Part shown: in pieces, positions 5,624 to 33,253 of the stretch
How the letters are laid out: every line of letters starts with the position of its first letter
How positions within the stretch are numbered: the first letter of the stretch is position 1
DNA from: a virus
Direction: 5' to 3' (one strand)
DNA: 40,815 bases
Virus record (IMG/VR): IMGVR_UViG_3300046804_003631
Span: 1 to 40,815 of that record
Translations under genes and position numbers: made by a program
Notes under the pieces: generated by a model
Databases searched by the model: none
What the model was told of the DNA's origin: nothing
The model's input: only the letters and a program-made list of their open reading frames with translations

Positions 5624-5647
5624 CTTTTAAATTTCAATCTGATACTC

Positions 5648-5655
5648 TATTTATC
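5648..5655 (-). promoter_or_regulatory. late promoter GATAAATA fused to the gp19 stop codon
   Basis: On the minus strand the TGA stop of gp19 runs into TAAATA. The motif is 25 bases upstream of the gp20 ATG and is one mismatch from the T4 late consensus. Confidence 0.5.
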
Positions 5656-6253: not shown

Positions 6254-6289
6254 TGTTAGTTACCTCTATGTTTTTAACGTTTATAAAAA

Positions 6290-7948: not shown

Positions 7949-7985
7949 GTTTATCTCCCTATAGAAGCCATTTTTAATCTACAAA

Positions 7986-7993
7986 TATTTAGG
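7986..7993 (-). promoter_or_regulatory. late promoter CCTAAATA for gp18
   Basis: It contains CTAAATA, the variant I recall being reported as a late motif in cyanophages, on the minus strand 38 bases upstream of the gp18 ATG. It sits in the 85-base gap after the small zinc protein gene. Confidence 0.45.
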
Positions 7994-8033
7994 AAAATGC
8001 TTTTTTCAAACGGGGAAACAATGCATGAGCATA

Positions 8034-8261
8034 CTACCAGTCAGGATACTCCCATAATTTATATTGTTTTTTCTGTCTTCTATTCATAACTCTTTTGATT
8101 GTGCAATCTTTGCACTCGTATGCATATGAAGATGGAAGATACTTTTTACCTTTGCGAATATTATAGAAATCAGTCATGAGGTCTTTAGTTTCTCCACAGA
8201 CCCTACACTCTCTTTCTTTAAACAATAAATGCTCTAAAGAAAACTGATCTTCTATGTCCAT
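8034..8261 (-). CDS. small zinc-binding protein between gp17 and gp18
   Basis: The 75-residue basic protein has two CxxC pairs, C19/C22 and C50/C53, which form a likely zinc knuckle. The segment between them, 'GETKDLMTDFYN', resembles the small phage zinc-finger proteins that accompany HNH or endonuclease VII type nucleases, but no HNH catalytic histidines are present. The ATG overlaps the gp17 stop as TAATG without its own Shine-Dalgarno sequence, so it is probably translated by reinitiation in fixed ratio to gp17. A role in packaging or DNA binding is inference from that position. Confidence 0.8.
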   Translation of the reverse strand: MDIEDQFSLEHLLFKERECRVCGETKDLMTDFYNIRKGKKYLPSSYAYECKDCTIKRVMNRRQKKQYKLWEYPDW

Positions 8262-9925
8262 TAGTAACCAAGCATGTAAGATACTTCTGGTGCTACGTCG
8301 CCATACTCATCAAGGTGCCATACGTCGCCATACTCATCCACAAACTTAGTTTCTTCATCTTCAAAACCATCTACAATAAAACCAAATGGAGACATGTCTT
8401 GTTCGATTTGATTTGCTTGTTCTTCATAGATACGTTTTCTTACATCATTGTCCGTCATCTCTCTGAAGTAAGGTTGCACTGCTAACCATGCAAACAACAC
8501 AAGACACATTACTAAGTCATCGTTATGTCCTTCATCTGCTTCAAAAGATTGATTTTTCTGAATGAATGTGGTAAGCTCGCTAATGATTTCGTAATCAGGA
8601 ATGAGTAACTTATCATCTTCAATCAATGTCTTTAAGTTAGAGCATCCAACTTTCTTAGTCACCTTAGACATCTTCAATCCAAGTTGAGATTTAGTGCCAG
8701 AGAATCCCTGACCAACAATCTGACCAGCACGACCACGCATGGCACACATCAACACATTAGGATATTCTAAATCGTAATGTAGAATGTTTCCTACTTGCTC
8801 ACCAATATCATTGATCTCAATTAGAATATATGCTTTATTGTAGTTTTTAGCAACTTGGTCTATAATACTAGGAAATAGTATAGGTTTGATTTCATTGTTG
8901 CGATATTTTGCTACTACTTTCCAGGGTAATGAAGTAATATCAAATACCACAAAAGCAGAATAGTCATTATTAGTGCCACGAGACACATCAACTGTTACAA
9001 TATAATCTCTATCTTCCTTTACTTTCTCATATACTTTGAGACCCTTGCCATTATCTTGAATTGGGTCATCGTAAGCCATTGAGCGAAGTTTAGATGCCGA
9101 GATGAGAGTATCAACCGACCCTAAGAATTCACACTCAAACTCTTGCGTGAATTGACGCTCAGAGGTGTTTCTAATCGTCTCCTCTTTCCATGCCTGGTCT
9201 CTTCCAGGAACTTGAGACCAATGCACTTCAAGCGGCACATAACCATTCTTACCACGCTCTGCATCATGCCACAGTTTATAAAACATATTCATACCCTGTG
9301 GGGTAGAAATAATAATAACTTTTGTGGTCTTACCAGATGAGATAGTAGGATACACCGAGCTAAAGAATTGCTCTGAGATGTGGTTTGGAATGAATGCAAA
9401 TTCGTCAAGGAAGATGATATTGAAAGAGTTTCCTCGCACAGCAGATGATGAAGTGGAAGCAGCAATAATTTTGCTACCATTCTCCAATTCCATGGATCCT
9501 TTATTCCATGCTACAATACCCATCTGCATCCACTTGGGCAAATTCTCATATGCCAACTGAAGACGAGACAATAATTCTCTTGAAGTTTCTGCTTTGTTTG
9601 CAAGAATAGCAATCTTTACATTATCATTAAACAAAGCATAGTGAAGCAGATAGGAAATAACTGTCGTTGATTTTCCCGTCTGCCTAGGTAGTTTTGCGAT
9701 ATTGAATCGATGATTGTGGAAGTTGCTAATCAGTTGCTCTTGGAAATCCCACATCTTGAAAGGCACTAGACCTTCATCAAGAGAAACAATTTTGATATGA
9801 TTTTTTGTGAAATAAACAGGGTCATCTTTACAACGAATAAATTCTTGAATCTGCTTCTTCGTAAAATTTATTGGTGTATTCGCTTTTTTTAAATTAGGAT
9901 TACCAAGATATACTGCATCACTCAT
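8261..9925 (-). CDS. gp17: terminase large subunit gp17
   Basis: This is the headful packaging motor: an N-terminal ATPase and a C-terminal nuclease that cuts concatemeric DNA. It has 554 residues (T4: 610). Walker A is LPRQTGKST (79-87), Walker B is IIFLDEF (170-176, with D174 and E175), and the coupling motif is STPQG (207-211). The RuvC-like nuclease residues are visible as D313 (TVDVSRG), E370 (ILIEIND) and the HNDD at 467-470. All needed residues are present, so it should be active. The gene overlaps the upstream 77-aa gene by eight bases. Its C-terminal tail contains an exact 18-base direct repeat that duplicates DEYGDV. Confidence 0.98.
   Translation of the reverse strand: MSDAVYLGNPNLKKANTPINFTKKQIQEFIRCKDDPVYFTKNHIKIVSLDEGLVPFKMWDFQEQLISNFHNHRFNIAKLPRQTGKSTTVISYLLHYALFNDNVKIAILANKAETSRELLSRLQLAYENLPKWMQMGIVAWNKGSMELENGSKIIAASTSSSAVRGNSFNIIFLDEFAFIPNHISEQFFSSVYPTISSGKTTKVIIISTPQGMNMFYKLWHDAERGKNGYVPLEVHWSQVPGRDQAWKEETIRNTSERQFTQEFECEFLGSVDTLISASKLRSMAYDDPIQDNGKGLKVYEKVKEDRDYIVTVDVSRGTNNDYSAFVVFDITSLPWKVVAKYRNNEIKPILFPSIIDQVAKNYNKAYILIEINDIGEQVGNILHYDLEYPNVLMCAMRGRAGQIVGQGFSGTKSQLGLKMSKVTKKVGCSNLKTLIEDDKLLIPDYEIISELTTFIQKNQSFEADEGHNDDLVMCLVLFAWLAVQPYFREMTDNDVRKRIYEEQANQIEQDMSPFGFIVDGFEDEETKFVDEYGDVWHLDEYGDVAPEVSYMLGY
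8294..8338 (-). repeat. 18-bp exact direct repeat in the gp17 3' end
   Basis: The same 18 bases occur at 8294-8311 and 8321-8338, a 27-base (nine-codon) period. They encode the doubled DEYGDV in the gp17 C-terminal tail. It is in frame and looks like a recent tandem microduplication. Confidence 0.85.
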
Positions 9926-10151
9926 TTGCTCGTCTAATATCCTTTTCTATATCTTCCATACTATTTAACCTTTTTTCCCACCCATCACCTTTTGTTGTTC
10001 CATGTGCTGGATTGATACAAGTATCATCACCAAACTTATCACAAACTAAAGAAGCGAGCTCAGTTTCATTCCCTTTCTTATTTGTGCCAGCCCAGAAGTG
10101 TTGACCCCCAATCCAGCAAGCCCCACACTTAGGGCAGGTTTTGGTATCCAT
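9918..10151 (-). CDS. small cysteine-rich protein upstream of gp17
   Basis: This 77-residue protein has CPKCGACW at residues 6-13, with further potential ligands H18, C37, C45 and H50, which suggests a compact zinc fold. The sequence 'GQHFWAGTNKKGNE' and the acidic/basic C-terminal helix are not a domain I can name. I believe similar small proteins occur in cyanophages. It overlaps gp17 by eight bases. It is the first gene after a consensus sigma70-type promoter, whose -10 lies 26 bases upstream of its ATG. AAGG lies eight bases before the ATG. The close linkage suggests a packaging-related or early role; this is inference. Confidence 0.8.
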   Translation of the reverse strand: MDTKTCPKCGACWIGGQHFWAGTNKKGNETELASLVCDKFGDDTCINPAHGTTKGDGWEKRLNSMEDIEKDIRRANE

Positions 10152-10164
10152 GTGTCTTACCTTG

Positions 10165-10179
10165 ATACGGTAATCGTAT
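10165..10179 (-). promoter_or_regulatory. operator-like inverted repeat at the gp17 promoter
   Basis: ATACG-gtaat-CGTAT is a perfect five-base dyad with a five-base spacer. It overlaps the last two bases of the -10 element and would cover the expected transcription start. It could bind a repressor or form a hairpin at the 5' end of the RNA. It is short, so chance is possible. Confidence 0.4.
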
Positions 10180-10205
10180 TATATAGGTAAACGAATGTTT
10201 GTCAA
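10178..10205 (-). promoter_or_regulatory. consensus sigma70-type promoter TTGACA-N16-TATAAT
   Basis: On the minus strand TTGACA (10205-10200) and TATAAT (10183-10178) are both perfect and are separated by 16 bases. It lies in the 75-base gap between the DUF6321-type gene and the 77-aa gene and points to gp17. In cyanophages early genes use host-type sigma70 promoters. A perfect one inside a late gene cluster is unusual. Confidence 0.8.
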
Positions 10206-10226
10206 GTAACAAATGATATAGTTTTG

Positions 10227-11018
10227 TCAGCAATTCCAAGCTCTTAATGATTTAGATAGGCGATCTTCGCCAGTGTTATTGCTATCTTTTTGTCTCTTAC
10301 GCATACCTTTCATTCTTGCACAGAATGACGCCCTGCGAGGATTTCCAACTTTCTTTGAAGGTGCCTTAAGGTCGCTTCCAGGATGCTCTTTCTCGTAAGA
10401 CTTTCTTCCTTTTTCATTCAGACCACCGTTTTTGTTTTGACCTGATTTCTTAGTCCAAGCAGCTCCCTCATTTACATCTTCGCTATCATTATCGTCATCA
10501 TCCTCATCGTCTTTATCTTTTTTAGACTTTTTTGCTTCGTGGATTACCTCCTCATTTTTAGATGACATGTAATCTGCAGCAGTATCAATGTAGTCACAAG
10601 CAAGAGTAATCTTAGACTGAACCCAAGCAGGAAGTTGCATCTTAGGATCTTTTACCACTAAACGGAGGCGATTAACAGCATCCTCCATCGTATCAAGTTG
10701 ACTCATAATCATTCCACCTTCATCATCAAGTTCTCTACCCATCGCAACAGCAATGTGATTCTCGCAAATCTCACGCATCTCTTTAACGGTTTTCTTTTTC
10801 TTCCATTCTTTTTTGAGTTTGTCTTCCATTGGTAGTAAGTGCTTGTAGTAATCGGGGAACTCCATAATATGTTGAAGGGCAATACCATATGCCTCTTCGT
10901 GGGTGGTGACATGCTCACGCTCTACAGTGGATCCAACCTCCGCTTGGCGAGTGACATAAGCAAGTGAAACACCATGCTTTCTGACAATTTCTTGTTCGGT
11001 AGGAATTCTTTTTTTCAT
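10227..11018 (-). CDS. DUF5661/DUF6321-type conserved marine phage protein
   Basis: The chosen start (11018, MKKRIPTEQE) overlaps the upstream stop as TAATG; a ten-residue longer form from 11048 is less likely. The 263 residues show three parts. First is an N-terminal segment with a DUF5661-like 'EEAYGIALQHIMEFPDYYKH' block. Next is a helical middle with LPAWVQSKITLACDYIDTAA, followed by a K/D/E-rich linker. Last is a C-terminal basic domain with WTKKSGQNKNGGLNEKGRK, FCARMKGMRKR and the terminal LRAWNC. That end matches the DUF6321 pattern as I know it. The function is unknown. The basic domain suggests nucleic acid or DNA-protein contact in the virion, which is inference. Confidence 0.88.
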   Translation of the reverse strand: MKKRIPTEQEIVRKHGVSLAYVTRQAEVGSTVEREHVTTHEEAYGIALQHIMEFPDYYKHLLPMEDKLKKEWKKKKTVKEMREICENHIAVAMGRELDDEGGMIMSQLDTMEDAVNRLRLVVKDPKMQLPAWVQSKITLACDYIDTAADYMSSKNEEVIHEAKKSKKDKDDEDDDDNDSEDVNEGAAWTKKSGQNKNGGLNEKGRKSYEKEHPGSDLKAPSKKVGNPRRASFCARMKGMRKRQKDSNNTGEDRLSKSLRAWNC

Positions 11019-12409
11019 TAGTAAATTTCCCTCCACTGTAGAGAACAAGCAGCAGATGATGTAGCATTTGCTGCAGTAGAAACTGTTTTAATTGAAACCA
11101 CAAATACTTCTGAGCTAGTGGAATCAAAATTTTGAGTGATTACGTTTTTCTTTGCCGAAGTCAAAGCACCAGTTGCTACTGGAGATAGTGAGTTTGGCGA
11201 AGCACCAGCTGGAATAATACCAACTGAAAAGACATCAGTTGTTCCTGTGATTGCTTCAGCATTTGTGCAATACTCAACACCACTATTATCATTAGCAGAA
11301 GTCCAAGTCAATACACCACCATTCAATGTTGTAGTTAATTGACTGGCACTGGATATTTTAATTAATTCATAATAACAATCACCACTGGAAGCGTAAATAC
11401 CCAAACTATTTGGTCTTACTGAGATTCTATTTGGATAACCTTGAAAACTGTTCTTCAAACGAATTGCCAGTAATGGAAATTGAGTTCCACCAGGAGTTTT
11501 GGTTGTTCTTGCAGCACCAGTGGCAGTAGCCCAATCAATACCACTTTCAACATATCCACCTTCTGACATGACGGTAGAGCAGATCTGATCCATAGATCCA
11601 CCAGCAGTTGTGCCAGTATTTCTAATCTCACATCTCACTGGAAGATTAGGATTAGACATATAAACTTCAGACAACTCATTAGAGCAGTAGTATTCATGTG
11701 CTAAAATAATCTGTCCGTTGTGAACAAACCCACAACGAATTCTACCAACTCCAAGCCACTGGAAGTCAATATAAACCAGTTGAGTTTTTGAAGTATCAAT
11801 ATTAAACTTGGAAGGACCAGTGCCATCGCAAGGATCAATATTCCATTCTGACTGCGGAACTCTTCTCTTGTAGTTTCCTACTGTTGCTTCACTAGCACTA
11901 CCACTAGCATAGGAACGAACTACAAAGTTAAGTGTGCCGTTAGTTGTGCCATCAGCAGTTCCATTCCCAACCTGCTCAAAATAAATGCCATCTCTATCAT
12001 CAAAGTATCCAGTTCTTTTGGTTACATTCTGTTGAGCATATCCAAATTTTATTGAACTAAAAATAACTTGTGATTTGCCTGGTTGGTAATGGTGATAAAA
12101 CTTTGTTTGATGAACAGCACGGGAAGCAACATTAGATGTTGTTGTCATGTTGGCACATGCTTTATTTGCTGTAAACTGAATATTGCCGCCATTCTCTTTT
12201 AGATCAACAAAGTTTGGGTCAATCGCATACAGGTGCTTATAGTCACCGAGAGTGAATGTTTCTGCAACTCTCAAACGACCGAAAGCATCTGTAGCAGTCG
12301 CACCAGTTCCAGCAGTAAGATTACCGAAGTTATCGGCAATCATAACTACTTCAAAATTTGTTTTTTCCTGTGGCAGGAAATCTTCGTAGTGTTTGCTATA
12401 CTGTGCCAT
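11018..12409 (-). CDS. virion structural protein with 'AFGRLRV' motif, paralogue of the 2589-aa protein
   Basis: The 463 residues contain DAFGRLRVAETFTLGD at 41-56, a motif seen in many phage virion proteins, then a beta-rich body. The segment from about residue 72 to 290 (QTKFYHHYQPGKS, GYFDDRDGIYFE, VPQSEWNIDPCDGTG, HEYYCSNELSEVYMSNPNLP) can be aligned by eye with the C-terminal 500 residues of the 2589-aa fibre protein. It is linked by TAATG to the 92-aa gene upstream and to the 263-aa gene downstream. A surface or tail-fibre-associated role is likely, but its place between gp16 and gp17 is unusual. The exact location in the virion is unknown. Confidence 0.88.
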   Translation of the reverse strand: MAQYSKHYEDFLPQEKTNFEVVMIADNFGNLTAGTGATATDAFGRLRVAETFTLGDYKHLYAIDPNFVDLKENGGNIQFTANKACANMTTTSNVASRAVHQTKFYHHYQPGKSQVIFSSIKFGYAQQNVTKRTGYFDDRDGIYFEQVGNGTADGTTNGTLNFVVRSYASGSASEATVGNYKRRVPQSEWNIDPCDGTGPSKFNIDTSKTQLVYIDFQWLGVGRIRCGFVHNGQIILAHEYYCSNELSEVYMSNPNLPVRCEIRNTGTTAGGSMDQICSTVMSEGGYVESGIDWATATGAARTTKTPGGTQFPLLAIRLKNSFQGYPNRISVRPNSLGIYASSGDCYYELIKISSASQLTTTLNGGVLTWTSANDNSGVEYCTNAEAITGTTDVFSVGIIPAGASPNSLSPVATGALTSAKKNVITQNFDSTSSEVFVVSIKTVSTAANATSSAACSLQWREIY

Positions 12410-12687
12410 TATCCTAGGTACGCAACTTTAGTAGCCGACACATTATCAGTGCTATCAACTTTAATCTTTTGAGCAGCGTCCTTATTAATAATAAGAGGAA
12501 TGCCAACAGTTAAAGCAAAACTACCAACCACTGTAGTGCCATCTGATTCATATAGAGAAACTGTTCTGGTTGAAGCTTCACCAGATAAGTCTGAGTGTGT
12601 GTTGTAAAGATACACATCAGTTGCTTTACTAATATCACTTGGCGTTGTTGTGAGCGTTTCCGCCTCAGCAAGAATCTTAATTCTCAT
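12409..12687 (-). CDS. small beta-rich structural protein
   Basis: This 92-residue protein has alternating hydrophobic and polar stretches: YLYNTHSDLS, VSLYESDGTTVVGSFALT and IPLIINKDAAQKIKV. It suggests a single beta-sandwich domain. The layout recalls the 110-aa protein at 27023 and small head- or fibre-decorating proteins of marine phages. Its stop overlaps the start of the 463-aa gene (TAATG), so the two probably act together. A late motif AATAAATA overlaps the gp16 stop just upstream and probably starts this operon. No specific family recognised. Confidence 0.8.
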   Translation of the reverse strand: MRIKILAEAETLTTTPSDISKATDVYLYNTHSDLSGEASTRTVSLYESDGTTVVGSFALTVGIPLIINKDAAQKIKVDSTDNVSATKVAYLG

Positions 12688-12707
12688 CTTATTTACCGTT
12701 TATTCTA

Positions 12708-12715
12708 TATTTATT
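12708..12715 (-). promoter_or_regulatory. late promoter AATAAATA overlapping the gp16 stop codon
   Basis: On the minus strand the gp16 TAA stop is part of AATAAATA. The ATG of the 92-aa gene is 21 bases downstream. It would start the 92-aa/463-aa/263-aa unit. Confidence 0.45.
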
Positions 12716-13115
12716 CTTCCTCTACCTTTCCACGCTTTAACATCTTCTGTAAGTCGGCAGTGCTTCCCAAAAAGATAGCGTTGTTAGTAACAGATGTTGG
12801 TCCTTTTTTAGATTCTTCTTTATTGAGATTCTTCATCTTCTGCTGTAAGTCAATCAATTTATCAGTCATGTCTGAGACCTGTTTCATAGCGTTTACAGCA
12901 ACTTCATAAGCTCTAGGGTGCCCTGACTCCTGAGCGACCTCTAAAGCGCCTTCTACCGCCTCCTGACCCTTAGATATGAGCCTGTATAATTCACCTCTGG
13001 TATATTCATAATCTTTGTCTGCATCTTGATTTTCTTCAGAGGCAACAATTTCTGCCTTCTCTGTAGTAACTTCAATATCAAAAATCTCTTCCATATTATC
13101 CTCAAACTTACTCAT
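12711..13115 (-). CDS. gp16: terminase small subunit gp16
   Basis: This is the DNA-recognition and regulatory subunit of the packaging motor. It has 134 residues (T4: 164). The central helical pair, with YTRGELYRLISKGQEAVEGA near 38-57 and QVSDMTDKLIDLQQKMKNLN near 79-98, is the coiled-coil core of the T4 family. The C-terminal FLGSTADLQKML is also typical. The start overlaps the gp15 stop (ATGA). A second in-frame ATG at 13094 has a better Shine-Dalgarno (GAGG, five bases), so an N-terminally shorter form is possible. Unlike T4, gp16 is separated from gp17 by about 2.8 kb. Confidence 0.93.
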   Translation of the reverse strand: MSKFEDNMEEIFDIEVTTEKAEIVASEENQDADKDYEYTRGELYRLISKGQEAVEGALEVAQESGHPRAYEVAVNAMKQVSDMTDKLIDLQQKMKNLNKEESKKGPTSVTNNAIFLGSTADLQKMLKRGKVEEE

Positions 13116-13909
13116 AGAATTTCAATACCTTCATTAAATCCAAAATCATCTCCAGGCATCAGCAGAGCATCATCTAAATTATTTACAACATCATCATCGT
13201 TTTTGTCTGTTAATGCTTCTGGCTCTACTGTATATTTAATAGTTCTTCTGTGTTGATCTAAATCGCCAATAGATTCAAATACGGTTGCCTTGCGAATGAT
13301 TTCACTGTTAGTAACAGGACCGTAGAAGTATGTCTTAAGAGTAAAATCTAAAGTGTATGTGATACTTCTACGACGCATCATATCATCTTGATAATCATCT
13401 TCATAAGAAATGCCATTCAATACAATAGGCAAATCTTTCTTCTCATCCATTTCTGGAATGAGATTGATAGTAACAGTAAATGCTGGTTGAAAGTATGGTA
13501 TAATTTGCTCAAGAATTTGTAGCGCATCATCTTGATTTTTAGAAATAATTGCTAACTCAAACTTAAGATTGTATGGCACGGGCATATACTGCACTTTAAC
13601 TGATGTGCCAGAATTTTCTTTAAGATACTTTTGAATGGGAGATGTTTTTCTTGAAGGGTCGTATTGCAAATCGACCATCTCAAAAGAAATACGAGGAAGA
13701 GTAATACTTACTTTTCTTTCTGTGCTTGGGTCTTGATCTAAGCGAGCAAGAAATTTGCTCTTTGGACCGTAAGCAAGAGGCACCTTCTGACGCTGAATTT
13801 CTGCATCAGTTTCTGGGTCTGTCTTCACAATTTCAATATTGTTGAAGACGGTGCCAAATGCTTTTACATTCTTTTTAATTATTTCGTGATAAAAATGCCT
13901 ACCTAACAT
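13112..13909 (-). CDS. gp15: proximal tail sheath stabilisation protein gp15
   Basis: This terminates the tail tube and sheath and forms the connector to the head. Its 265 residues are close to the T4 length (272). The N-terminus MLGRHFYHEIIKKNVKAFGT, then VFNNIEI and ITLPRISFEMVDLQYDPSRK near 70-89, aligns well with T4 gp15 as remembered. YMPVPYNLKFELAI and RRSITYTLDFTL are further typical blocks. It is joined to gp14 by TAATG and to gp16 by ATGA. Confidence 0.95.
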   Translation of the reverse strand: MLGRHFYHEIIKKNVKAFGTVFNNIEIVKTDPETDAEIQRQKVPLAYGPKSKFLARLDQDPSTERKVSITLPRISFEMVDLQYDPSRKTSPIQKYLKENSGTSVKVQYMPVPYNLKFELAIISKNQDDALQILEQIIPYFQPAFTVTINLIPEMDEKKDLPIVLNGISYEDDYQDDMMRRRSITYTLDFTLKTYFYGPVTNSEIIRKATVFESIGDLDQHRRTIKYTVEPEALTDKNDDDVVNNLDDALLMPGDDFGFNEGIEIL

Positions 13910-14814
13910 TAGAATGAATCCTCCATATTTCCATATTCACCAAATGGATTGCCTTCAGTAAAGTCAATAATCTCGTCTCCTCTATCCTCATACCATTTGT
14001 TTTCGGCATTATCATAATTATCAATCTGAAAATCAATGGTAGAGAAATTATCGACGGTCCAAGAAGCACCACTGTCTTCTCCAACTAAAGGTAAATTTTC
14101 TCTTAATACTCCACCTTTTATATAGGTTAATCTAAGTTTTCTATTTAACTGATCCCACTCAGCAACTGTGCCTTCTATAGTTACTGGGGTGTCATCAACT
14201 GTATAAGTTTGCTCTACCTTTTCGCCAACAATATAACTACCAGTGCCACCAGATTTCACATACACTGGGAATACATGTGCTTCTTGTGTGAGATCATCTA
14301 TTAACGGATCTTTAGTATCGAAACGATTGTCGCCATTTTCTAGAAGTTCACAAGTCAAAGAAAAAATATAATTTTTTCCTAGCTGATAAAAAGGAACTTC
14401 TCTTTCAACAAATTTTATTTCATATAAATTTTTTGTCATAGGCACATATAATAAATCGCCTTCATTTGGTCTATTAGGTACTACTGTATCTATTTCTGTT
14501 TCCACATAATTAATCCATCTTCTTTTTGAAACAGCGTATGTAATTTCATCTGATAATCTCAAACCAAATTTACTCATCGCTACAGCACTAGCACCACCAA
14601 ATCCTTCTACATTAATTAACATCATTTCTATAGTAACTTTATCTTCAAATTTAGATAAAACAACATCATTTAATGTCTTATCAATTAGCATTGTTTTTGG
14701 CACATAAACTACATCTTGTCCAAATAATTTAATTTGTTCATCAACTAAATCTTGGACCAGTGTTTGTTCTGATGTTCTTCCACCGTATTGTGGAAAATAT
14801 TGACTTTTAGCCAT
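13909..14814 (-). CDS. gp14: neck protein gp14
   Basis: This is a head completion/neck component acting with gp13 so that tails can join. It has 301 residues (T4: 256). Family features include DEQIKLFGQDVVYVPKTM near 26-43, and FGGASAVAMSKFGLRLSDEI near 72-91. The C-terminus has GNPFGEYGNMEDSF. A middle segment (about 195-250) with TYTVDDTPVTIEGTVAEWD is a small beta insertion, absent from T4 as far as I recall, and may account for the extra length. It starts one base after the gp13 stop. Confidence 0.95.
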   Translation of the reverse strand: MAKSQYFPQYGGRTSEQTLVQDLVDEQIKLFGQDVVYVPKTMLIDKTLNDVVLSKFEDKVTIEMMLINVEGFGGASAVAMSKFGLRLSDEITYAVSKRRWINYVETEIDTVVPNRPNEGDLLYVPMTKNLYEIKFVEREVPFYQLGKNYIFSLTCELLENGDNRFDTKDPLIDDLTQEAHVFPVYVKSGGTGSYIVGEKVEQTYTVDDTPVTIEGTVAEWDQLNRKLRLTYIKGGVLRENLPLVGEDSGASWTVDNFSTIDFQIDNYDNAENKWYEDRGDEIIDFTEGNPFGEYGNMEDSF

Positions 14815-14815
14815 A

Positions 14816-15622
14816 TCAACCGATTAAGAAGTTTGCTGGTAATTCATACTCTGATTGCATTCTCGCTTCAATATCAGCTATCTCTGCTTTTCCTTCTTCG
14901 TATAATTTTTCCCCATTTAAAGAAACACCACCAGGAAGTTGGACTCCATTAAACTTGATTAAATTTTGTCCCCACTGCATTTTAATTTGTGCAGTTACAT
15001 AACGCTTAAGGAAACTATCATTATAGATTTTTGTATAATCATTTGGATTAAGTGCTCTATAACACTCAATAACCATCCATCTATCTTTAGCAATATATTT
15101 TGGATCATAATCAATATATAAACGATTCTGACGTTTAGTATATCTTATTTGAATCATTGATCCAGTATTCAAAATCATATCTAAAGTTTCAAGATATGAT
15201 TTTGTCATATAGTAATTAAGAATATCGAGAGACCCAAAAGCATACAAATCATTTAAAAACATTTGATATTCAATACCAAATAGGTCACCGCGAATTGTAG
15301 AAGATACAAAAGAAAATAATCTTTCTACGCCAATAATATGATCTGGTATTTGAAGATAATTATTTCTTTCTTCCCAGACATCTCCATTTGAAGCAGTTGA
15401 ATTAGTATTACTTGTTTGAAATCTATCTACATCTGTTTGCGTAAATTTATGTTTAAGAAACATTTTTTCGACGCCATCAAAATGTCTTTCGTTAAAATAT
15501 TGCAAAGACATATCAATAATATCTTCAATTTGTTCATCTGCAACATTAATTTCTAATACTGGAGCTCCCAATCTACGAAGACAATATGCTTTTAATTCAG
15601 TTCTATTAGTTGGATTTGCCAT
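14816..15622 (-). CDS. gp13: neck protein gp13
   Basis: This is the head completion protein, first gene of the neck operon. It has 268 residues (T4: 309). The start TNRTELKAYCLRRLGAPVLE and the next block VADEQIEDIIDMSLQYFNE are characteristic. QIRYTKRQNRLYIDYDP and the final QSEYELPANFLIG also fit. A CATAAATA element lies 23 bases upstream of the ATG, directly downstream of the terminator of the fibre operon, so transcription is re-started here. Confidence 0.95.
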   Translation of the reverse strand: MANPTNRTELKAYCLRRLGAPVLEINVADEQIEDIIDMSLQYFNERHFDGVEKMFLKHKFTQTDVDRFQTSNTNSTASNGDVWEERNNYLQIPDHIIGVERLFSFVSSTIRGDLFGIEYQMFLNDLYAFGSLDILNYYMTKSYLETLDMILNTGSMIQIRYTKRQNRLYIDYDPKYIAKDRWMVIECYRALNPNDYTKIYNDSFLKRYVTAQIKMQWGQNLIKFNGVQLPGGVSLNGEKLYEEGKAEIADIEARMQSEYELPANFLIG

Positions 15623-15644
15623 TCTGATAAAAGCTCTTTTTAAA

Positions 15645-15652
15645 TATTTATG
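15645..15652 (-). promoter_or_regulatory. late promoter CATAAATA for gp13
   Basis: On the minus strand it directly follows the T run of the fibre operon terminator and precedes gp13 by 23 bases. It is one mismatch from TATAAATA. Confidence 0.55.
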
Positions 15653-15686
15653 AAAAAAGAGGGGTGTCTTTCGACACTCCCTCTTG
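15652..15686 (-). terminator. strong Rho-independent terminator of the fibre operon
   Basis: On the minus strand GAGGGAGTGTC pairs with GACACCCCTC (one bulged base) around a GAAA tetraloop and is followed by six T. It lies 22 bases past the stop of the 2589-aa gene. Confidence 0.9.
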
Positions 15687-15707
15687 ATTAAAGAATAACT
15701 GAAAGAA

Positions 15708-18700
15708 TCAAGCTTGTGATTCAGTCCAAGTTAGACGTGCAGTAACTGTTGTTGCTGCAGCAGTATCAGTTGGAACAACTGCCAGAGTTAGAACGTCTGG
15801 TCCGTTAGGGAATACATAATCTCCACCGAGAATGCTGTTGCCAAGTTCCACAAGTGTTCCAAGATCTTGTGTGATTGGAGAGTTTACAGCAGCACGGAAT
15901 TCGAAGATTGAGATACCACCGCTGATGGTATCAGCACTTTGACCAGTGTGCTTGATGATTTGACATAGTGAAGGAGAACCGTAGTTGGTGAAGTATGCTG
16001 ATTGTGAGAGGTTACCATTTAGAATGAGACGTACTGAAGCAGGTTTGTTGTTTGTATTACCAACAACAAGACCAGTTGAATTCATCTTAAGAATCATTCT
16101 GTTAACGAGATCTCTTTCGCCAAGAGGACCAACGAGTGAAGTATCAACCGATGGAGCAAGGCGAATTGAGAGAATCGGTACCGCAACACCAGCAAGTGTC
16201 TGTGGAATCGAAATAGTATCCGAACCAGCAGAACCAGAAGCAACGGAGAAGAGGTATGCCTTGTCATCCTCAAACTTACCATCCATGATTACCGAAGCAC
16301 CCCAGTGATAGAGTGATGGAGCATAGGTTGGAGAATCGCCATTTTCAATTTCATAACGAGCAGGTAGGTTACCAGAACGGAGGTAAGCTTCGTTCTCCTT
16401 GTTGTTGTGAATAAACTCGTGAACGTAAGTTACAATACCTTTTTGATCTTTGAATCCGAAGCGGACCTTACCAGCACCATACCATGAGTAATCCATGTAT
16501 GCCATTTGCTGGCGGTGGATGTCGAGCTTGAATCCAGTTACGCCGTTTCCATCACACTTATCAATATTCCATTGTGATTGTGGAACCTTAAGATCGATAA
16601 TCTTGGTAACTACAATCTTAGATCTTGAAGTTCCTCTATAAGCAGGAGTGATGGAAGCAGAAGTATCAGAATCAACAGCAGTAATCTTGTATGTCATACC
16701 GCGAATTACAACTCTATCGTTTACAGATAGTTGTTTGGTGAATCTTGTGCCATTACCAGAAATTATATTTCCTTTAAATGTGCAAGCAACTGTGCCAGCC
16801 ATTTGTGAAGTTGCATTTCTTCTTACACAAGAGAGATTCTGACCATCATACTCGAAGAACATACCGTTTTGGTCATCAAACATACCAGCGCGGACTCTTG
16901 CATCTGCCCACTCATATAGGAATAGAGATGCGAATCCAGATGGTGCTAAATCAGAAGGAACGCCATTAGTTGCATAGCGGAAGGTGAATTCATCAATAAC
17001 GTTGTTAACAGTAAAGTATAGACCGTTCGCTGGAGTTACATAAGGAGCATTTACTCCAGAGGTAACAGTTACATCTTCCACAATAATTCTGTTTCCAGCA
17101 ATTAGTTTGTGTGGTTTTCTACTAATCACAGTTGCAAATGATGATCCATCATGAGTAATGCTAGAAACATCAATCGAAGGACTGAAGTTGATGCCAGTAG
17201 AATACTGCAGACCTTTACCAGACTGATAACGGAAATATCTTCTGGTCTGTCTTGTGATTTGTACTCCAGGAGCTCTTGCTGCTGAAATTTCAACACCACC
17301 ATCAAATGATCTATGTAGATTCAAGCAATCTGGTCTTACAAACATTTGAGTTTCATAAATGAATGGAATTGCTTGGAGAACACCATCACGAATGTTAGCA
17401 CCAGTTTGTGTTAGATAGTAGTTGCTGTTTGTACCAGTTAATGAATCTGATGCTAGAGCACCACCAGACTGATAACGAATGTAGGAGCTTGAGCAGTATG
17501 TAGCAGCAACTAGGTAATGGTTGAAACCTTGACCAGTTGAAGTAATATCAATAAACTGGAATGTAAGTGCGTTGCTAAGCGAGCTAGCGAGACGAATTAC
17601 ATCGTCATTAATCTTGATGATGTAGTAAGTAGAACCTTCAGCTAAACCACCAATAACGTTACCGATACCAAAACCAGCAGAATAGTAAACCTTAACACCA
17701 GTGTTTAGACCATGATTTGGAATATAAATTTCATCTCTTTCAGTTGAAATAACTGGAGTTGCTAGACCAGAAACAGCAACTGCTATCGTCTGTGGGTTGA
17801 AGTTAATTTGACGAGTTGGATATGGGTCAGTAACAATCATATCCGAATCATTGTTAACTGCAAGTACTTGCATATCAAATACAAATCCTTCATACTTCTC
17901 GAAACGATGTGATGAACCACTACCGTTTGCAGTAGGAATGATTTGGTCAACTCCAGTACCAGTTGAACCACCGATGAAAGCACCAGCAGGTGAACTGTGA
18001 ATTGTGAAGTTGTTGGCGTCAATTACGTTGATGTAGTAGAGAGTGTTTGCAGTCATGCCACTATATGGCTGCTGTGGAAGTTGTGAAGTATATTCTTGCC
18101 AGCTACCATTAGTCCCTTGGTGCCATCCACCTTGAGCATCCAGTTTGTAAACAACAGCATCGCCAGTAGATAGACCGTGACCGTTGATGTTGAAGATACC
18201 AGTTGAAGTGTTAGCAACACCAGTACCAGAAAATACAAGGGTCTTAATTGGCATCCTACCAGACAACTTAACGCTATCACCACCTCTATACTGAGCAAGA
18301 AACTTGGTTGAGTATGAAGGAAGTGGTGGGAGAAGCATCCAGTTGAGGTTTGCTCTACCGTCAGAATCTTGTACGGGTTGGTTTCCAGAGTTACCAACAA
18401 ATGTTGATTGACCAGGAGCAGTAGCACCAGTTACTGACATGTAGTAGCTGTTTCTGAATATAACAACATCGCCATATGTATAAGTATCAGATGTGTTCCA
18501 ATCACCTTTGAAGGTTGTTCCTCTTAGTGATGGGTTGGTTACTTTAAACTGGTGAAGTGTGCTAGTTCCAACGCCAAGAATATCAACTAGGTCGGTATTT
18601 GTGTAAGCACCCACCCATGTATTGTGGAGAGAGAACTGGTTAGCAGCCTGACCAGCGGCAGCACCACCTTTTGCCTGAGCACCAGCAGTATTGTTGATGA

Positions 18701-21700
18701 AATACTGGCGGCCAGTTACTAGACCATTGATATTTCTACCATTACCCCATACTTGATAGATGATTCTATCACCAGTGTTAAATCCATGACCAGTGAATAC
18801 AATTCTATCAGAAGCAGCGAGAACAGCAGCATTCGAAGATCCATTAACAATAATATCTCTAGCAACAATAGTGGCGAGACCATTTCCTAGAGATTCTCCA
18901 GTAACTTGCAAAGTAGTGATGGTATGACCAGCATTAACTGTGCCAGTAGTTGAGAAGTTTTGAATTGCAATACCATTTAAAGCATCTTGCTTAGTATATG
19001 CAAGTTGGAACATATCGAGGTTTCTGCGAATTGTATAATAAGTTCCAGAAATGAATCCAGTACCACCAGGAGATCCACCAGTTGTTGAGTTTGCTACAGT
19101 CACAGAAGATACTGTAGATGAAACTACCTTGAAAGTTCCATTATAACCATTTGCAGTTGATCCACCTACAGTTACGCCAGAAATTGTAATTGTTTGGTTT
19201 GGAACGATATCAAATGGAGATGATGGTAGTGTTCCAAAACCATATGTTACAAAACCAGCAGAAGGAGATGAAGCCGTGATGCTAGTAATCTGTAAATCAT
19301 ATAGAGCATTATAACCAGCGCGAGGGTTGGTATTACCAGTGGATCTACCAATTTCAAAGCTGTTTCCATTTCTAGAATAAACAACTCTTGTGCCAGTAGT
19401 TAGACCATGATCTTGATAATAGAATGTGCCAGTTCTTAAGTCGGTATTCTTAGCGGGGTCAAAGGTAATAACTCTATTACTAATAGTATTACCAGGAGTA
19501 AAAGATACCTTATAATCAGATACTGCAACAGCATCATATCCACCATCGATAGTTCCAGTTGAGGAAACATTAACTAGGTTGTGAGTGCCACTGGCAGAAG
19601 ATGTAAGAGGAACTGAGTCATAGTATTGTACGAATGACCAGTTACCAGCAGAACCTGTGTTTGTAATATCAATTGGGAAACCAGCAAAAGCAGCAGCTCT
19701 GGAGTGTGCTAACTGGAAGTTGTTGGCGTCAACGGGAATTGCATAATAAAGTTGAGCGTTTGCAGACTGAGAAGTATTGATGATAGTGTTAGTAATAGCA
19801 CCAGACGTTGTATACGCTGAGATAGCAACGGTTTCGCCAATTCTTAGACCGTGACCAGTCAAGTTCCAAGTATCAGTTGTAGAGTTGGATGAACCAAAAG
19901 CAACTGAGAAAGATCTTGGAGTTGCGGTATCTCTAACTTGTAACTGGAAGCTTCCATTTACTCTGTAGATACTTACTTCTGCTGGAATTGCTCTAGCAGT
20001 TGTGCCACTGTATCCTCTTGTAACTGTAACAGTGTTTCCACTCACAGCAGTAACAAGCATTTTTTCATTTAGATAAACACCAGTCCATAAAGTATTTCCT
20101 ACGGAAATTCCAGATCCAATAGAAGTGTTTAAAGTTAATACTGTAGCGTCAGCACCATGGTCAATCGTAGTAAATAGACCAGTTGAAATTGGAGTGAAAT
20201 CGCTTACGTTTCTTACTGTAAATAGACTACCATTTACAAGACCAGGAGCACCTGTATAAGCACTGCCAACTTCAGAAGCACCAGTAGACTCATATCTTAC
20301 AATATCTCCTTCGGTTAAAGTTTGTTGCTCAATAGGTAGGAATATTCTATTACCAAATGGGTTTGCAACAGAAGAGTTAGCAAACTTAACTTTTGTGGTG
20401 CCAAAAGGTCCAGAAACAGAAGTGGTTGCTTGTGAAGCAGTACCAGTGATAGTTAACTGAACTGTTGGTTGACCAGTAGGTAACGTAGATGCCGAATATG
20501 CCTGTACTTTGAAAATATCATCATTGATTGGCACCATGTAATAACGGTTTCCACTAGTGAGTCCTTGAATAGGAGCTGTAGCTTGTGTCATCGTCATGCT
20601 GACTCTTGGCCAGTTAACACCAGTAGAATCCGTTACATAATCGAATAGAGGACCAGGGAAACCAGCAGTAGCAGGGAATACACCTTGAGTATCAGTTGTG
20701 CCTCCTGTAAACGATCCAGAGATGCTATAAGCAGTTCTTTGCCCAGTAACACCACCGTGGTTTGGTAGATAGAAACTATTTGAATATGGGTTTTCTGCGA
20801 TACGGCAGCAAATAAATCTACCAGCACCAGTAGTGTGGTTTGAAGTAAAGTTGATTGGAGAACCACTATCAGCAAGAGTAATAGAGAATTCACTAGCGCC
20901 AGAAACTGGACCAGAGTTAATTAATGTTCTTGCAAAATACTTCTGGAATGATGCATATGTGTTTGGAGTTTCAGTTACAGCACCAGGAAGTGTTGATCCT
21001 GTACCATTCTTAAGAATGATTTCAGCCTTTTCTGTCATGTATGGAGGTAGGTTTGCATAAGCACCTAGAACACGGTCACGACCACCGCCACCACCACCAG
21101 CAGCTGCTGAGAATATGTTAACTGTGAAACCAGGATGAATTTGATACACGCCACCAGCCCATGTGTTTGCTGTGGAGAAGTTTACACGAGTAGCACCAGT
21201 AGAACCAGAATAAGGACCAACACCAGAAACAGTTTCAGTAGTGCGAAGTTCAATTTCATCTTTGTTAATTGGCTCAACATAATAAATTGCAGACTGGGAA
21301 GCAGATTCTACTGGAGCTGTTACACCACCAGTCCAAGTATTTCCTCCACCAATAAAGATAATTGGAACACCCGATGCTAAACCATGGTTCTTAATGAAGA
21401 TTCTATCAGATGAAATGCATTCACGAGTAAACATCTTACCAGTGATTGAGCACCAATCGTGAATAGAAACACGAGTGTGATTCAACCATGAAGTTGCACC
21501 ATCATGTATTTGAGCACGTGCGCCAGAACGGAATACTTTAATTGTTGCACCACCGACAGTTCCACCGAATGAAACAGGAGTTACTGAAACAGCTGGGTTT
21601 GTAGTTGAAAGAGTAATAGAAGTAGAAGTTACTGTAGAAACAAAATAGTTTGTATTCAGAGAAACACCAGTTAGAGAACCAACGTTAGTGAATCTAACAA

Positions 21701-23477
21701 TAGATCCTACGCGAGTTGGGAGGTCACCGTTGCCAAGATTTGTTAATGTATTAACGGTTAGAGTTGCACCACTAGCTGCAGTGATAGTTGGTGAGAATGT
21801 ATTTTCAAAATTCTTTGTTCTAATAATAGTATTTGTTGCTGCAGCAGCATTTGATAACACGTAGGTTGCAGAAACAGTTTGGTTGGTAAAAGCGGCACCA
21901 GTGCTGTTGGATGGACCTTCCATGATGAAGAAGCTATCAGTTTCTCTCCAGTTCTGACTCGTAAAACCAGGAGCAGTTGGAGTTGCTTTTACAACATAAA
22001 CACCATCAAGACCAGCAATACCAGTATCACTTAGAGTGATCTGACGCTCTGGATAAACACTCATTTGACGGTTTGTTCTGCCGCTAAATGTAACTTTAAC
22101 TTCGGATTGACCGTTTATAATTTGAATAGATGAAATATTTTGTTGAATTTCATAACCTCTTGTATTGAAAAGAGAGAAAGTCAAGTTACCGCTACCAGAA
22201 CTAGCAAAGTCAACGAGGACATCATTGTTATAAGCATTCTGTGGGTTGGTTGCTAATTTAATAGTATCAGAATCTACAACAACAGCATAGAAGAATGAAG
22301 AAGCCGCTACTCCAGTTCCGTTGTTGTATATTGGTAGTTGACCTGCGGAAACAGCAAAACGACCTGTTGAAACAGCGTTGATTGTTGGATGTGATCCAGT
22401 AGAACCTAGATATGTGATGGGGTCTCCAGTTACTAATCCATGATTTGTAATAGTGATGGTATCTGCGGAAACGTTAATACCAGTTGCAGCATCAACAACA
22501 CGAAGAGCAGTACCTGCGTGATAAGGTTCATATGTGTTGAAATCACCAGTATCTAGAGAATATGAAATTCTATCTTCGACGTTACCGCCAGATGTAATGG
22601 AAGAAGCAGCAAATGCAACTCTTTTATTAGAAAGAGTATTTGTTAAATAGAATGGAGAATTAACTTTGAATCCATGCTTATATGGAGTAGTTACTGTTAG
22701 AGTGCTTGTAGATGCGTTGTCAGTAACAACTGGTCCTTCATCAACATTAACACTATTATCAAAAGGAATTTGTGATTGGACATAGAAACGACCAGTCGTG
22801 ATAGTTACATAAGCAGTATTGATGCTTACTGGAACTGAAGGTGAACCAGGCTGTACAGTTCTTGTTTCGTATGTGAAGGTGTAATCTGTTGTTTTGCGAA
22901 CTAGGAATGTACCTTCTGCTGTTATACTGTCGAGACCGCGAACATCAATAGGGATACCAGTCGTTAGACCGTGAGGTGATGTTGTGGTTACAGTAACAAT
23001 TCTGCCACCATTTGTGCTTACATCAGAAACATTTGAGAGGGGGGTATCGCCACTGATTGAATAGTAACCAGGAACGTTATTAACTCTTTCTAGAGTTTCC
23101 CACTTGGTTGCTTGTAGACCATATTCGAAGTCGGTATCAATTAGAGTGTTTGGCTCTGATACGCGAAACTTAGATACTGGGTCTAAAAGGGTATCAACTG
23201 GTTTGATTTCAACACCATCTTGCTCTGTAAAAATTTGAAGAACATCACTGTTATTCTGTCCAGTGGTGTCGTAATTTAGAGTGATAGTGGTTAAATCTGT
23301 AGATGGATTATAATCTACAGCAGTTGCTTTTAGAGCAGGGTCGCCAACGTTGTAGATAACGGTGTTGGCGGTTGCGTTGTTGATTAAGAGTAATCTCTTG
23401 AAATTTATATTACCTTTGATTGTAATCTGACGAGCAGCTTTATTAAAGGTATAGTCAAATGCTAACTTTCTTGCCAT
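15708..23477 (-). CDS. giant modular tail fibre/adhesin protein (2589 aa)
   Basis: The largest gene here, last in a six-gene fibre operon. Residues 101-128 carry FRVSEPNTLIDTDFEYGLQ, a conserved virion-protein motif related to AFGRLRV in the 463-aa protein. From about 165 to 2030 the protein is built of diverged beta modules, many opening with 'HGL-x-TG' and ending 'YY.I..D.n.i.La'. I place them near residues 170, 270, 347, 700, 910, 1206, 1356, 1564, 1769, 1925 and 2127. A glycine-rich hinge lies near 800 and one CBM5/12-like unit near 1658. The last 500 residues align with the 463-aa protein. Several modules resemble the E1_FCCH fold often detected in phage fibres. No enzymatic motif is seen. 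The start has AAAGGAG eleven bases upstream. Likely surface exposed and host-interacting. Confidence 0.92.
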   Translation of the reverse strand: MARKLAFDYTFNKAARQITIKGNINFKRLLLINNATANTVIYNVGDPALKATAVDYNPSTDLTTITLNYDTTGQNNSDVLQIFTEQDGVEIKPVDTLLDPVSKFRVSEPNTLIDTDFEYGLQATKWETLERVNNVPGYYSISGDTPLSNVSDVSTNGGRIVTVTTTSPHGLTTGIPIDVRGLDSITAEGTFLVRKTTDYTFTYETRTVQPGSPSVPVSINTAYVTITTGRFYVQSQIPFDNSVNVDEGPVVTDNASTSTLTVTTPYKHGFKVNSPFYLTNTLSNKRVAFAASSITSGGNVEDRISYSLDTGDFNTYEPYHAGTALRVVDAATGINVSADTITITNHGLVTGDPITYLGSTGSHPTINAVSTGRFAVSAGQLPIYNNGTGVAASSFFYAVVVDSDTIKLATNPQNAYNNDVLVDFASSGSGNLTFSLFNTRGYEIQQNISSIQIINGQSEVKVTFSGRTNRQMSVYPERQITLSDTGIAGLDGVYVVKATPTAPGFTSQNWRETDSFFIMEGPSNSTGAAFTNQTVSATYVLSNAAAATNTIIRTKNFENTFSPTITAASGATLTVNTLTNLGNGDLPTRVGSIVRFTNVGSLTGVSLNTNYFVSTVTSTSITLSTTNPAVSVTPVSFGGTVGGATIKVFRSGARAQIHDGATSWLNHTRVSIHDWCSITGKMFTRECISSDRIFIKNHGLASGVPIIFIGGGNTWTGGVTAPVESASQSAIYYVEPINKDEIELRTTETVSGVGPYSGSTGATRVNFSTANTWAGGVYQIHPGFTVNIFSAAAGGGGGGRDRVLGAYANLPPYMTEKAEIILKNGTGSTLPGAVTETPNTYASFQKYFARTLINSGPVSGASEFSITLADSGSPINFTSNHTTGAGRFICCRIAENPYSNSFYLPNHGGVTGQRTAYSISGSFTGGTTDTQGVFPATAGFPGPLFDYVTDSTGVNWPRVSMTMTQATAPIQGLTSGNRYYMVPINDDIFKVQAYSASTLPTGQPTVQLTITGTASQATTSVSGPFGTTKVKFANSSVANPFGNRIFLPIEQQTLTEGDIVRYESTGASEVGSAYTGAPGLVNGSLFTVRNVSDFTPISTGLFTTIDHGADATVLTLNTSIGSGISVGNTLWTGVYLNEKMLVTAVSGNTVTVTRGYSGTTARAIPAEVSIYRVNGSFQLQVRDTATPRSFSVAFGSSNSTTDTWNLTGHGLRIGETVAISAYTTSGAITNTIINTSQSANAQLYYAIPVDANNFQLAHSRAAAFAGFPIDITNTGSAGNWSFVQYYDSVPLTSSASGTHNLVNVSSTGTIDGGYDAVAVSDYKVSFTPGNTISNRVITFDPAKNTDLRTGTFYYQDHGLTTGTRVVYSRNGNSFEIGRSTGNTNPRAGYNALYDLQITSITASSPSAGFVTYGFGTLPSSPFDIVPNQTITISGVTVGGSTANGYNGTFKVVSSTVSSVTVANSTTGGSPGGTGFISGTYYTIRRNLDMFQLAYTKQDALNGIAIQNFSTTGTVNAGHTITTLQVTGESLGNGLATIVARDIIVNGSSNAAVLAASDRIVFTGHGFNTGDRIIYQVWGNGRNINGLVTGRQYFINNTAGAQAKGGAAAGQAANQFSLHNTWVGAYTNTDLVDILGVGTSTLHQFKVTNPSLRGTTFKGDWNTSDTYTYGDVVIFRNSYYMSVTGATAPGQSTFVGNSGNQPVQDSDGRANLNWMLLPPLPSYSTKFLAQYRGGDSVKLSGRMPIKTLVFSGTGVANTSTGIFNINGHGLSTGDAVVYKLDAQGGWHQGTNGSWQEYTSQLPQQPYSGMTANTLYYINVIDANNFTIHSSPAGAFIGGSTGTGVDQIIPTANGSGSSHRFEKYEGFVFDMQVLAVNNDSDMIVTDPYPTRQINFNPQTIAVAVSGLATPVISTERDEIYIPNHGLNTGVKVYYSAGFGIGNVIGGLAEGSTYYIIKINDDVIRLASSLSNALTFQFIDITSTGQGFNHYLVAATYCSSSYIRYQSGGALASDSLTGTNSNYYLTQTGANIRDGVLQAIPFIYETQMFVRPDCLNLHRSFDGGVEISAARAPGVQITRQTRRYFRYQSGKGLQYSTGINFSPSIDVSSITHDGSSFATVISRKPHKLIAGNRIIVEDVTVTSGVNAPYVTPANGLYFTVNNVIDEFTFRYATNGVPSDLAPSGFASLFLYEWADARVRAGMFDDQNGMFFEYDGQNLSCVRRNATSQMAGTVACTFKGNIISGNGTRFTKQLSVNDRVVIRGMTYKITAVDSDTSASITPAYRGTSRSKIVVTKIIDLKVPQSQWNIDKCDGNGVTGFKLDIHRQQMAYMDYSWYGAGKVRFGFKDQKGIVTYVHEFIHNNKENEAYLRSGNLPARYEIENGDSPTYAPSLYHWGASVIMDGKFEDDKAYLFSVASGSAGSDTISIPQTLAGVAVPILSIRLAPSVDTSLVGPLGERDLVNRMILKMNSTGLVVGNTNNKPASVRLILNGNLSQSAYFTNYGSPSLCQIIKHTGQSADTISGGISIFEFRAAVNSPITQDLGTLVELGNSILGGDYVFPNGPDVLTLAVVPTDTAAATTVTARLTWTESQA

Positions 23478-23500: not shown

Positions 23501-24400
23501 TTAGAATCCGAATGTTAGTGAAAATGTTAAAGCTGCCGCCTTAACTGCAGCAATTTGTTGGGTTACGTTACTGGTGTTATCACCTTGAGCAAATAATTCC
23601 CAATAAGCAGGTGCTTGTTCTGGGTCTCTTGCGCCACCATCAGCAATGGTGTATTCTTGGATATTTATCCAAGCACTAGCACCTTTAAATACAATTTCTC
23701 CTAGTGTATAATCAGAAACTGCACTCCAAGATCCTCTCCACCTTAAACCAGTTTGGAGGAAAGTCCATTTTGTTATATCTGACGAAGGTTTTACGTTAGT
23801 ATTGGCAACAATCGCAACGTAAAGATTGCCACCATACTGAGCAACATCACCTGGCTTATATGTAGTTGCTCCACTCCATGCTCCCACTGGGGATAGTCCA
23901 GTGACTAGGAGACCCCAATCAGCAGAACTTGAAGAAGGAACTACGTTTGTATTGATTGTTTTAGCGGTATAAGTATATCCGCCATAAGCAACAATATCTC
24001 CTGGTTGATATTCGGTTGAATTACTCCAACTATTTTCAAACTTTAATCCGTTAAGATAAGTTGAAAATTTAGTAGGATCATATATGGTTGCTGAAATGTG
24101 TGGTGTTGTACAAACATAAATTGAGTTACCATAAGTAACAAGGTCATTTACTTTGTAAAAAACGTTTGCTGTCCACGTCCCTGTTACTTCGTAACCTGGA
24201 ACGTGAACATTCCATCTACTTGTAGGTGCGCCTAAATCAGTTACATAAAATGCCGCTTCATCAACGGCAGATGTGTGGTTGACAACACAAATATATGTGT
24301 TACCACCAAACTTCACGATATCATCAATTTCGTAGGCTGTATTAGCATTCCACGCGCCTCTCCAATTAAATTTTAATCTACCTAATCTGAAGTCTGCCAT
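23501..24400 (-). CDS. five-repeat CBM5/12-like carbohydrate-binding fibre protein
   Basis: The 299 residues are five tandem repeats of about 50 residues, beginning near 13, 72, 122, 172 and 221. Each reads roughly 'G.W...t.Y..gDiV.ygg..Yv', as in RGAWNANTAYEIDDIVKFGG and GAWSGATTYKPGDVAQYGG. This is the carbohydrate-binding module 5/12 (chitin-binding-like) pattern, with the conserved W, Y and aromatic positions kept. The protein likely binds cell-surface polysaccharide. It precedes the 2589-aa gene in the same operon, which holds a single stray repeat of the same type. An AGGA precedes the ATG. The N-terminal 'FRLGRLKFNWRGAW' looks like the anchor to the virion. Confidence 0.88.
   Translation of the reverse strand: MADFRLGRLKFNWRGAWNANTAYEIDDIVKFGGNTYICVVNHTSAVDEAAFYVTDLGAPTSRWNVHVPGYEVTGTWTANVFYKVNDLVTYGNSIYVCTTPHISATIYDPTKFSTYLNGLKFENSWSNSTEYQPGDIVAYGGYTYTAKTINTNVVPSSSSADWGLLVTGLSPVGAWSGATTYKPGDVAQYGGNLYVAIVANTNVKPSSDITKWTFLQTGLRWRGSWSAVSDYTLGEIVFKGASAWINIQEYTIADGGARDPEQAPAYWELFAQGDNTSNVTQQIAAVKAAALTFSLTFGF
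23656..23673. repeat. perfect 8-bp inverted repeat in the CBM-like gene
   Basis: CTTGGATA and TATCCAAG face each other with two bases between. It lies within the codons for WINIQ in the last CBM repeat and includes a GATAAATA on the minus strand. Probably coincidental, but a hairpin or internal promoter is possible. Confidence 0.4.
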
Positions 24401-33245: not shown

Positions 33246-33253
33246 TATTTATG
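33246..33253 (-). promoter_or_regulatory. late promoter CATAAATA overlapping the stop of the 2108-aa gene
   Basis: On the minus strand the TAA stop of the 2108-aa gene is inside CATAAATA. The ATG of the 61-aa gene is 28 bases downstream. Confidence 0.45.

Follow-up and report, generated by a model that had tools for sequence, protein, structure and literature searches.

Probable growth of a giant phage structural protein from within, by insertion of modules into one turn of a small core

A virus record of 40,815 bases from IMG/VR (IMGVR_UViG_3300046804_003631; analyzed whole and called the window here) encodes on its minus strand a 463-aa protein and a 2589-aa protein that resemble each other at both ends, which raises the question of how a giant phage protein may be built from a small one. 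Phage fibers are generally portrayed as lengthening, or exchanging parts, at their termini. Neither domain insertion nor lectin-like phage proteins are new in themselves. The original prediction, made from the nucleotide sequence, was that the larger protein is the smaller one split by about 2,000 residues of modules. Our analysis indicates that the giant protein is probably the core of the small protein with one of its turns opened up to hold about 1,900 residues of modules. The size of the insert, the exactness of its site, and the existence of a split lineage make the case unusual. On this reading, a surface protein has grown from inside via a single beta-turn, by up to 2,400 residues, with its core positions intact.

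A core shared by two proteins

In our searches, the nearest relatives of the window were T4-like cyanophages (Kyanoviridae). The 463-aa open reading frame (ORF) lies between neck/terminase genes, and the 2589-aa ORF lies upstream of gp13. The two proteins and their parts are located as follows.

11018 to 12409, minus strand: 463-aa small virion protein, the uninterrupted core (phrog_1645; AlphaFold2 pLDDT 83.8, pTM 0.81)
12194 to 12289, minus strand: residues 41-72 of the 463-aa protein, N-terminal block, predicted first strands of the lectin-like fold
12185 to 12193, minus strand: residues 73-75 (NGG) of the 463-aa protein, predicted turn equivalent to the site of the giant insertion (breakpoint 74/75; DSSP of the model)
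11555 to 12259, minus strand: residues 51-285 of the 463-aa protein, predicted concanavalin A-like/GH16-type beta-sandwich (VIA-align Z 18.0)
15708 to 23477, minus strand: 2589-aa giant relative (phrog_5838)
23184 to 23477, minus strand: residues 1-98 of the 2589-aa protein, additional N-terminal domain that is not in the small protein
23088 to 23183, minus strand: residues 99-130 of the 2589-aa protein, N-terminal block of the core
17343 to 23087, minus strand: residues 131-2045 of the 2589-aa protein, giant insertion with 12 of the protein's 13 HGL-type modules and one CBM5/12-like stretch
15711 to 17342, minus strand: residues 2046-2589 of the 2589-aa protein, rest of the core (the body) with two smaller insertions
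16941 to 17180, minus strand: residues ~2100-2179 of the 2589-aa protein, second insertion, one HGL-type module in the B-C loop
16600 to 16760, minus strand: residues ~2240-2293 of the 2589-aa protein, third insertion, a module of the GT.F..QL..GD type in the C-D loop

The 463-aa protein matches phrog_1645 over its full length (E value, 3.5e-136; positions 1-440 of 440). The 2589-aa protein matches phrog_5838 in three stretches (E value, 1.6e-180) and exceeds the length of that profile (1106) by a factor of 2.3; its residues 1-134 match on their own (E value, 2.5e-37). Each protein also scores against the family of the other. Both families are labeled as virion structural protein and placed in the PHROGs category head and packaging. 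A Pfam search with both proteins gave no match above the cut-off and no GH16 domain. We did not come across any account that treats the two families as one fold in an intact and an interrupted form, or that assigns a function to either. The comparison offers a fold-based reading for two large cyanophage structural families. The first 82 residues of the 2589-aa protein, which lie within the domain that the small protein lacks, match gp26 of Arthrobacter phage Sonali.

The C-terminal body is shared at a level that BLASTP detects directly (E value, 6e-23), and all of the motifs quoted in the original prediction were found. In the large protein, these are RQTRRYFRYQSGK (near 2076), FDDQNGMFFE (2200), VPQSQWNIDKCDG (2298), HEF (2353), and NLPARYEIEN (2370); in the 463-aa protein, they occur in the same order at 100, 136, 184, 238, and 255. 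The N-terminal block (i.e., DPVSKFRVSEPNTLIDTDFEYGLQATKWETLE at residues 99-130 of the 2589-aa protein and DAFGRLRVAETFTLGDYKHLYAIDPNFVDLKE at residues 41-72 of the 463-aa protein) aligns over 32 residues in each without a gap. A plain BLASTP comparison of the two proteins did not detect this block. A profile of 70 large N termini compared with a profile of 79 small proteins gave a score of 42.5 (E value, 2.3e-5; Prob, 76), while the top score among 200 column shuffles was 23.6 and that of the reversed profile was 18.1. The proposed N-terminal motif therefore withstood the profile comparison.

The spacing of the shared motifs locates the additional sequence. Between anchors A (D..xKxR) and B (RQT...YQSGK), the distance is 1977 residues in the 2589-aa protein and 59 in the 463-aa protein; the corresponding values are 124 and 36 for B-C, 99 and 49 for C-D, 72 and 71 for D-E, and 66 and 59 for E-G. 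Because the B-C and C-D spacings are longer in the 2589-aa protein, the two smaller insertions in its body are real (88 additional residues around 2127 and 50 around 2243). We found 13 HGL modules in this protein, 12 in the main insert and 1 in the B-C loop. The expectation of two distant halves with HGL-type modules between them and two minor insertions was thus borne out. For the type of insert in the C-D loop, the corresponding segment of the large-family profile hits an F2-pyocin side fiber (E value, 2e-7).

A graded series of relatives with one breakpoint

In two IMG/VR scans, we collected 80 loci with the small form and 80 with the large form. With the small-family profile, five blocks were found to be collinear in about 80 large relatives. 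The A-B distance is 58 to 60 residues in the small proteins versus 236 to 2433 in the large ones, while the D-E distance is nearly fixed (71 to 72 versus 72 residues). In the three best-resolved cases (L116, L150, and L110), the N-terminal block stops at position 74 of the core profile and the next block starts from 74-75; since the flanking blocks meet at 74/75, no core position has been lost at the break. Of 82 loci with the N-terminal block, 80 encode it together with the body on a single ORF, and the other two have it on the ORF directly upstream.

The insert varies by units close to its modules. Compared with relatives at 52 to 56% identity, the 2589-aa protein shows indels of 73, 82, and 90 residues (i.e., approximately one module each), and the number of HGL modules grows with protein length (r = 0.77). 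Large homologs from isolated phages comprise 1095 (S-PM2), 1108 (S-RIM32 and S-RSM4), 1673 (S-CAM1), 1682 (S-CAM3), and 2087 (S-BM3) residues, and that of the metagenomic phage genome ctQRb9 comprises 1736 residues. In Synechococcus phages (e.g., S-RIM32 and S-PM2), family members carry the annotation virion structural protein or hypothetical protein; S-RIM32 encodes both the small and the large form. The family is a graded natural series, with inserts of about 180 to 2,400 residues, in which the tolerance of a fold to loop insertion can be studied. One locus (L103) carries two adjoining paralogs, of 2471 aa (4397-11809) and 1918 aa (12966-18719), from different branches of the large clade.

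In an unrooted tree of the core block D-E (104 columns), from which two fragments and two long-branch rows were excluded, the large proteins form one side of a single branch (SH-aLRT, 99). Two apparent small proteins within the large clade (L146 and L155) were rejected as fragments, their ORFs starting at the contig edge. One founding insertion followed by changes in length is the simplest reading. Growth by insertion into a core fold, as originally proposed, is thus supported by a breakpoint without loss, variable spacing at one site, module-sized indels, a single clade of insert-bearing proteins, and the location of the breakpoint in a beta-turn of the structure model.

Predicted structure of the core and of the opened form

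The AlphaFold2 model of the 463-aa protein was built with 57 relatives. Its residues 51-285 are predicted to form a concanavalin A-like/GH16-type two-sheet beta-sandwich, which is followed by a C-terminal beta domain. The closest structural neighbors are the GH16 enzymes 3d6e (Z = 18.0; 172 residues; root mean square deviation [rmsd], 2.3) and 1mac (Z = 17.6). The break site corresponds in the model to a three-residue turn (73-75) between strands 67-72 and 76-80. Compared with GH16 enzymes, the core lacks the catalytic motif and has an identity of about 10%, and in the large form the fold would be interrupted past the first strands.

As a natural short stand-in for the 2589-aa protein, we modeled L164, an 878-aa relative whose insert spans about 190 residues (26 sequences; pLDDT 70.9). 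GH16 proteins align to this model from residue 26 or 27 through 680-687, i.e., across the insert (3wz1, Z = 10.1, 189 residues). Because the alignment with the agarase 3wz1 begins at nearly the same residue of that enzyme in both models (27 in L164; 29, against residue 41, in the 463-aa model), the two N-terminal blocks appear to occupy the same place in the GH16 fold, which is support and not proof. The C-terminal domain of L164 (residues 690-878) resembles the TNF-like lectins PLTL (9ib7) and the BC2L-C N-terminal domain (2wq4) with middling Z values (8.4 to 8.8). Its HGL modules resemble the E1 FCCH domain and the barrels of phage endosialidases (4hiz and 1v0e); compared with these, the modules in the window fill a loop of another domain and occur in runs of up to a dozen. 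The expectation that the two ends of the large protein fold together thus received partial support: the GH16 alignments to L164 bring the ends together, while the N-terminal block is modeled there with a pLDDT below 50, and split genes in two sister loci show that a single chain is not required.

HFTV1 gp20 (418 aa; L183, 10332-11588) has the same length as A0A410N6U5, a Foldseek target of the 463-aa model. It was considered as a relative of known location and not used, having no sequence match to the family profile. HFTV1 gp20 has been detected in virions by mass spectrometry, and the available part of the source does not state its location there.

A proposed route of growth

Under the insertion model, the 463-aa protein would consist of a short N-terminal peptide that may anchor it to the virion, the predicted sandwich, and a C-terminal beta domain whose counterpart in L164 resembles TNF-like lectins, and the 2589-aa protein would be a paralog of the same core. 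A single opening of the beta-turn past the first strands, in the common ancestor of all the large members, would have made room for small HGL-type beta-barrel modules; later gain and loss of modules may have led to inserts that range from about 180 to 2,400 residues, and one or two more loops (B-C and C-D; E-G in other members) would have taken up single modules. The first strands would pack on a body from which about 1,915 residues separate them in the chain, and the insert, leaving and re-entering the core at neighboring strands, would project as a long arm.

Residues 1-40 of the 463-aa protein are predicted to be disordered, and their pattern (MAQ.....FL.QE...FE) is seen again in other cyanophage proteins, among them a tail fiber protein of phages MA01 and MC09 (a weak match; E value, ~4). 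This N terminus is perhaps a virion-anchoring peptide.

Split genes and alternative explanations

In Actinomycetia phage DSL-LC01 (L006) and in locus L156, an ORF of 824 or ~900 aa encodes the N-terminal block, and the body is encoded by the ORF that follows after fewer than 20 bases (2853 aa in DSL-LC01). The N halves of the two loci are 53% identical, and parts of the C halves are 45 to 73% identical. Since the C halves of the two loci group as sisters in the tree (97), the arrangement most simply reflects one old split, after which each half gained its own new terminus. The body half of DSL-LC01 (10222-18783; OQ999401.1) is misannotated as "ALK tyrosine kinase receptor."

Several points weigh against the insertion model. 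The split genes show that the two ends stay a gene pair but need not be one chain, which would fit either strand sharing across chains or a role of its own for the N-terminal block. This block is short (32 residues), and in the 463-aa protein it is detected only through profile-profile comparison; its profile alone, searched against the window, does not pick out the 463-aa protein, and searched against the Protein Data Bank (PDB), it yields chance matches only and no GH16 protein. The small-family profile likewise finds no relative among PDB sequences (best E value, 0.34). The block is invariant at 18 of 42 positions across the large clade, well above what a buried strand needs, and conservation extends beyond the breakpoint; in the L164 model, the placement of the block is weak (pLDDT 31 to 49). 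This conservation, the low pLDDT, and the new ends of the split halves would suit a block that is a separate small domain merely resembling the first core strand, with a body that folds alone. We consider this improbable, given that the match has equal length, lacks gaps, and scores well over the controls, that the blocks are exactly complementary at 74/75 and nearly always share an ORF, and that both models cover the same GH16 strand. A strand shared between chains, either swapped with a neighboring protomer in a trimer or supplied in the split lineage by the product of the next gene, is also unlikely, though slightly less so: the split has been kept in two sister loci with similar N halves and adjacent C halves, linkers of up to 2,400 residues would permit swapping, and the C-terminal domain resembles TNF-like lectins, which are trimers. 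In the small proteins, however, the block is 59 residues from the next anchor, which favors packing in cis there. For DSL-LC01 and L156 in particular, there is some chance, if a minor one, of a two-chain fold in which the upstream strand completes the downstream sandwich and locks two different fibers together; this may then be a natural example of two genes contributing to a single fold.

With respect to the direction of change, the small form is also found in Salicola phage SCTP-2, in phage DSL-LC04 (gammaproteobacterial), and in haloarchaeal HGTV-1 (gp10; E value, 2.5e-25); this spread favors the small form as ancestral. An unrooted tree alone cannot separate gain from loss, and the small protein could in principle derive from a large ancestor by deletion of the insert. 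Given the wider occurrence of the small form, the match of the core to GH16 proteins without an insert, and the need for additional modules at three or more loops to disappear without a trace, such a deletion is highly improbable. The top structural neighbors of the core, which are GH16 lichenases, laminarinases, and agarases (Z = 15 to 18), would suggest an active GH16-like polysaccharide hydrolase (i.e., a depolymerase) and not a lectin-like binder. However, the GH16 motif E-x-D-x-(x)-E was found in only 7 of 184 relatives, all of them large members and never in the core body, and Pfam reported no GH16 domain. A hydrolase is therefore very unlikely, and we rejected the enzyme reading.

Putative function

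Because the catalytic motif is not in the core, no enzyme activity would be expected of it, and binding appears likelier than hydrolysis. Both forms of the protein are likely virion adhesins that bind the host surface or glycans, and the modules of the large form may set the reach and specificity of such an adhesin. The PHROGs category of both families counts against this assignment, and we infer virion location and glycan binding only indirectly, since sequence searches found no relative of solved structure. The 1095-aa homolog in S-PM2 (S-PM2d173) is in a gene run (173-175) with S-PM2d174 and S-PM2d175. The product of d175 has been described as belonging to a contiguous adhesin block and acquired a repeatable selected substitution (PMC9910659). 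The homolog of the large form in this run is d173, while the reported mutation is in d175; S-PM2d173 is not named in that coevolution study.

Other repeats and modules in the window

Related or repetitive elements occur elsewhere in the window. The CBM5/12-like motif W..Y..GD.V.Y is present once in the giant insert (18456-18506, minus strand) and in several copies in a 299-aa tail-fiber-like protein (23501-24400, minus strand). One HGL module is found in a 770-aa protein (residues 101-196; 30417-32729, plus strand). A 2108-aa protein (33249-39575, minus strand) matches the E1 FCCH domain weakly and contains a stretch, SKNGSDNLYDGSTPAKAFKTIKKA, that resembles a beta-helix spike. A 731-aa protein (24816-27011, minus strand) contains degenerate IT..KIAD repeats in a row; the 206-aa ORF opposite these repeats (26182-26802, plus strand) is probably their by-product.

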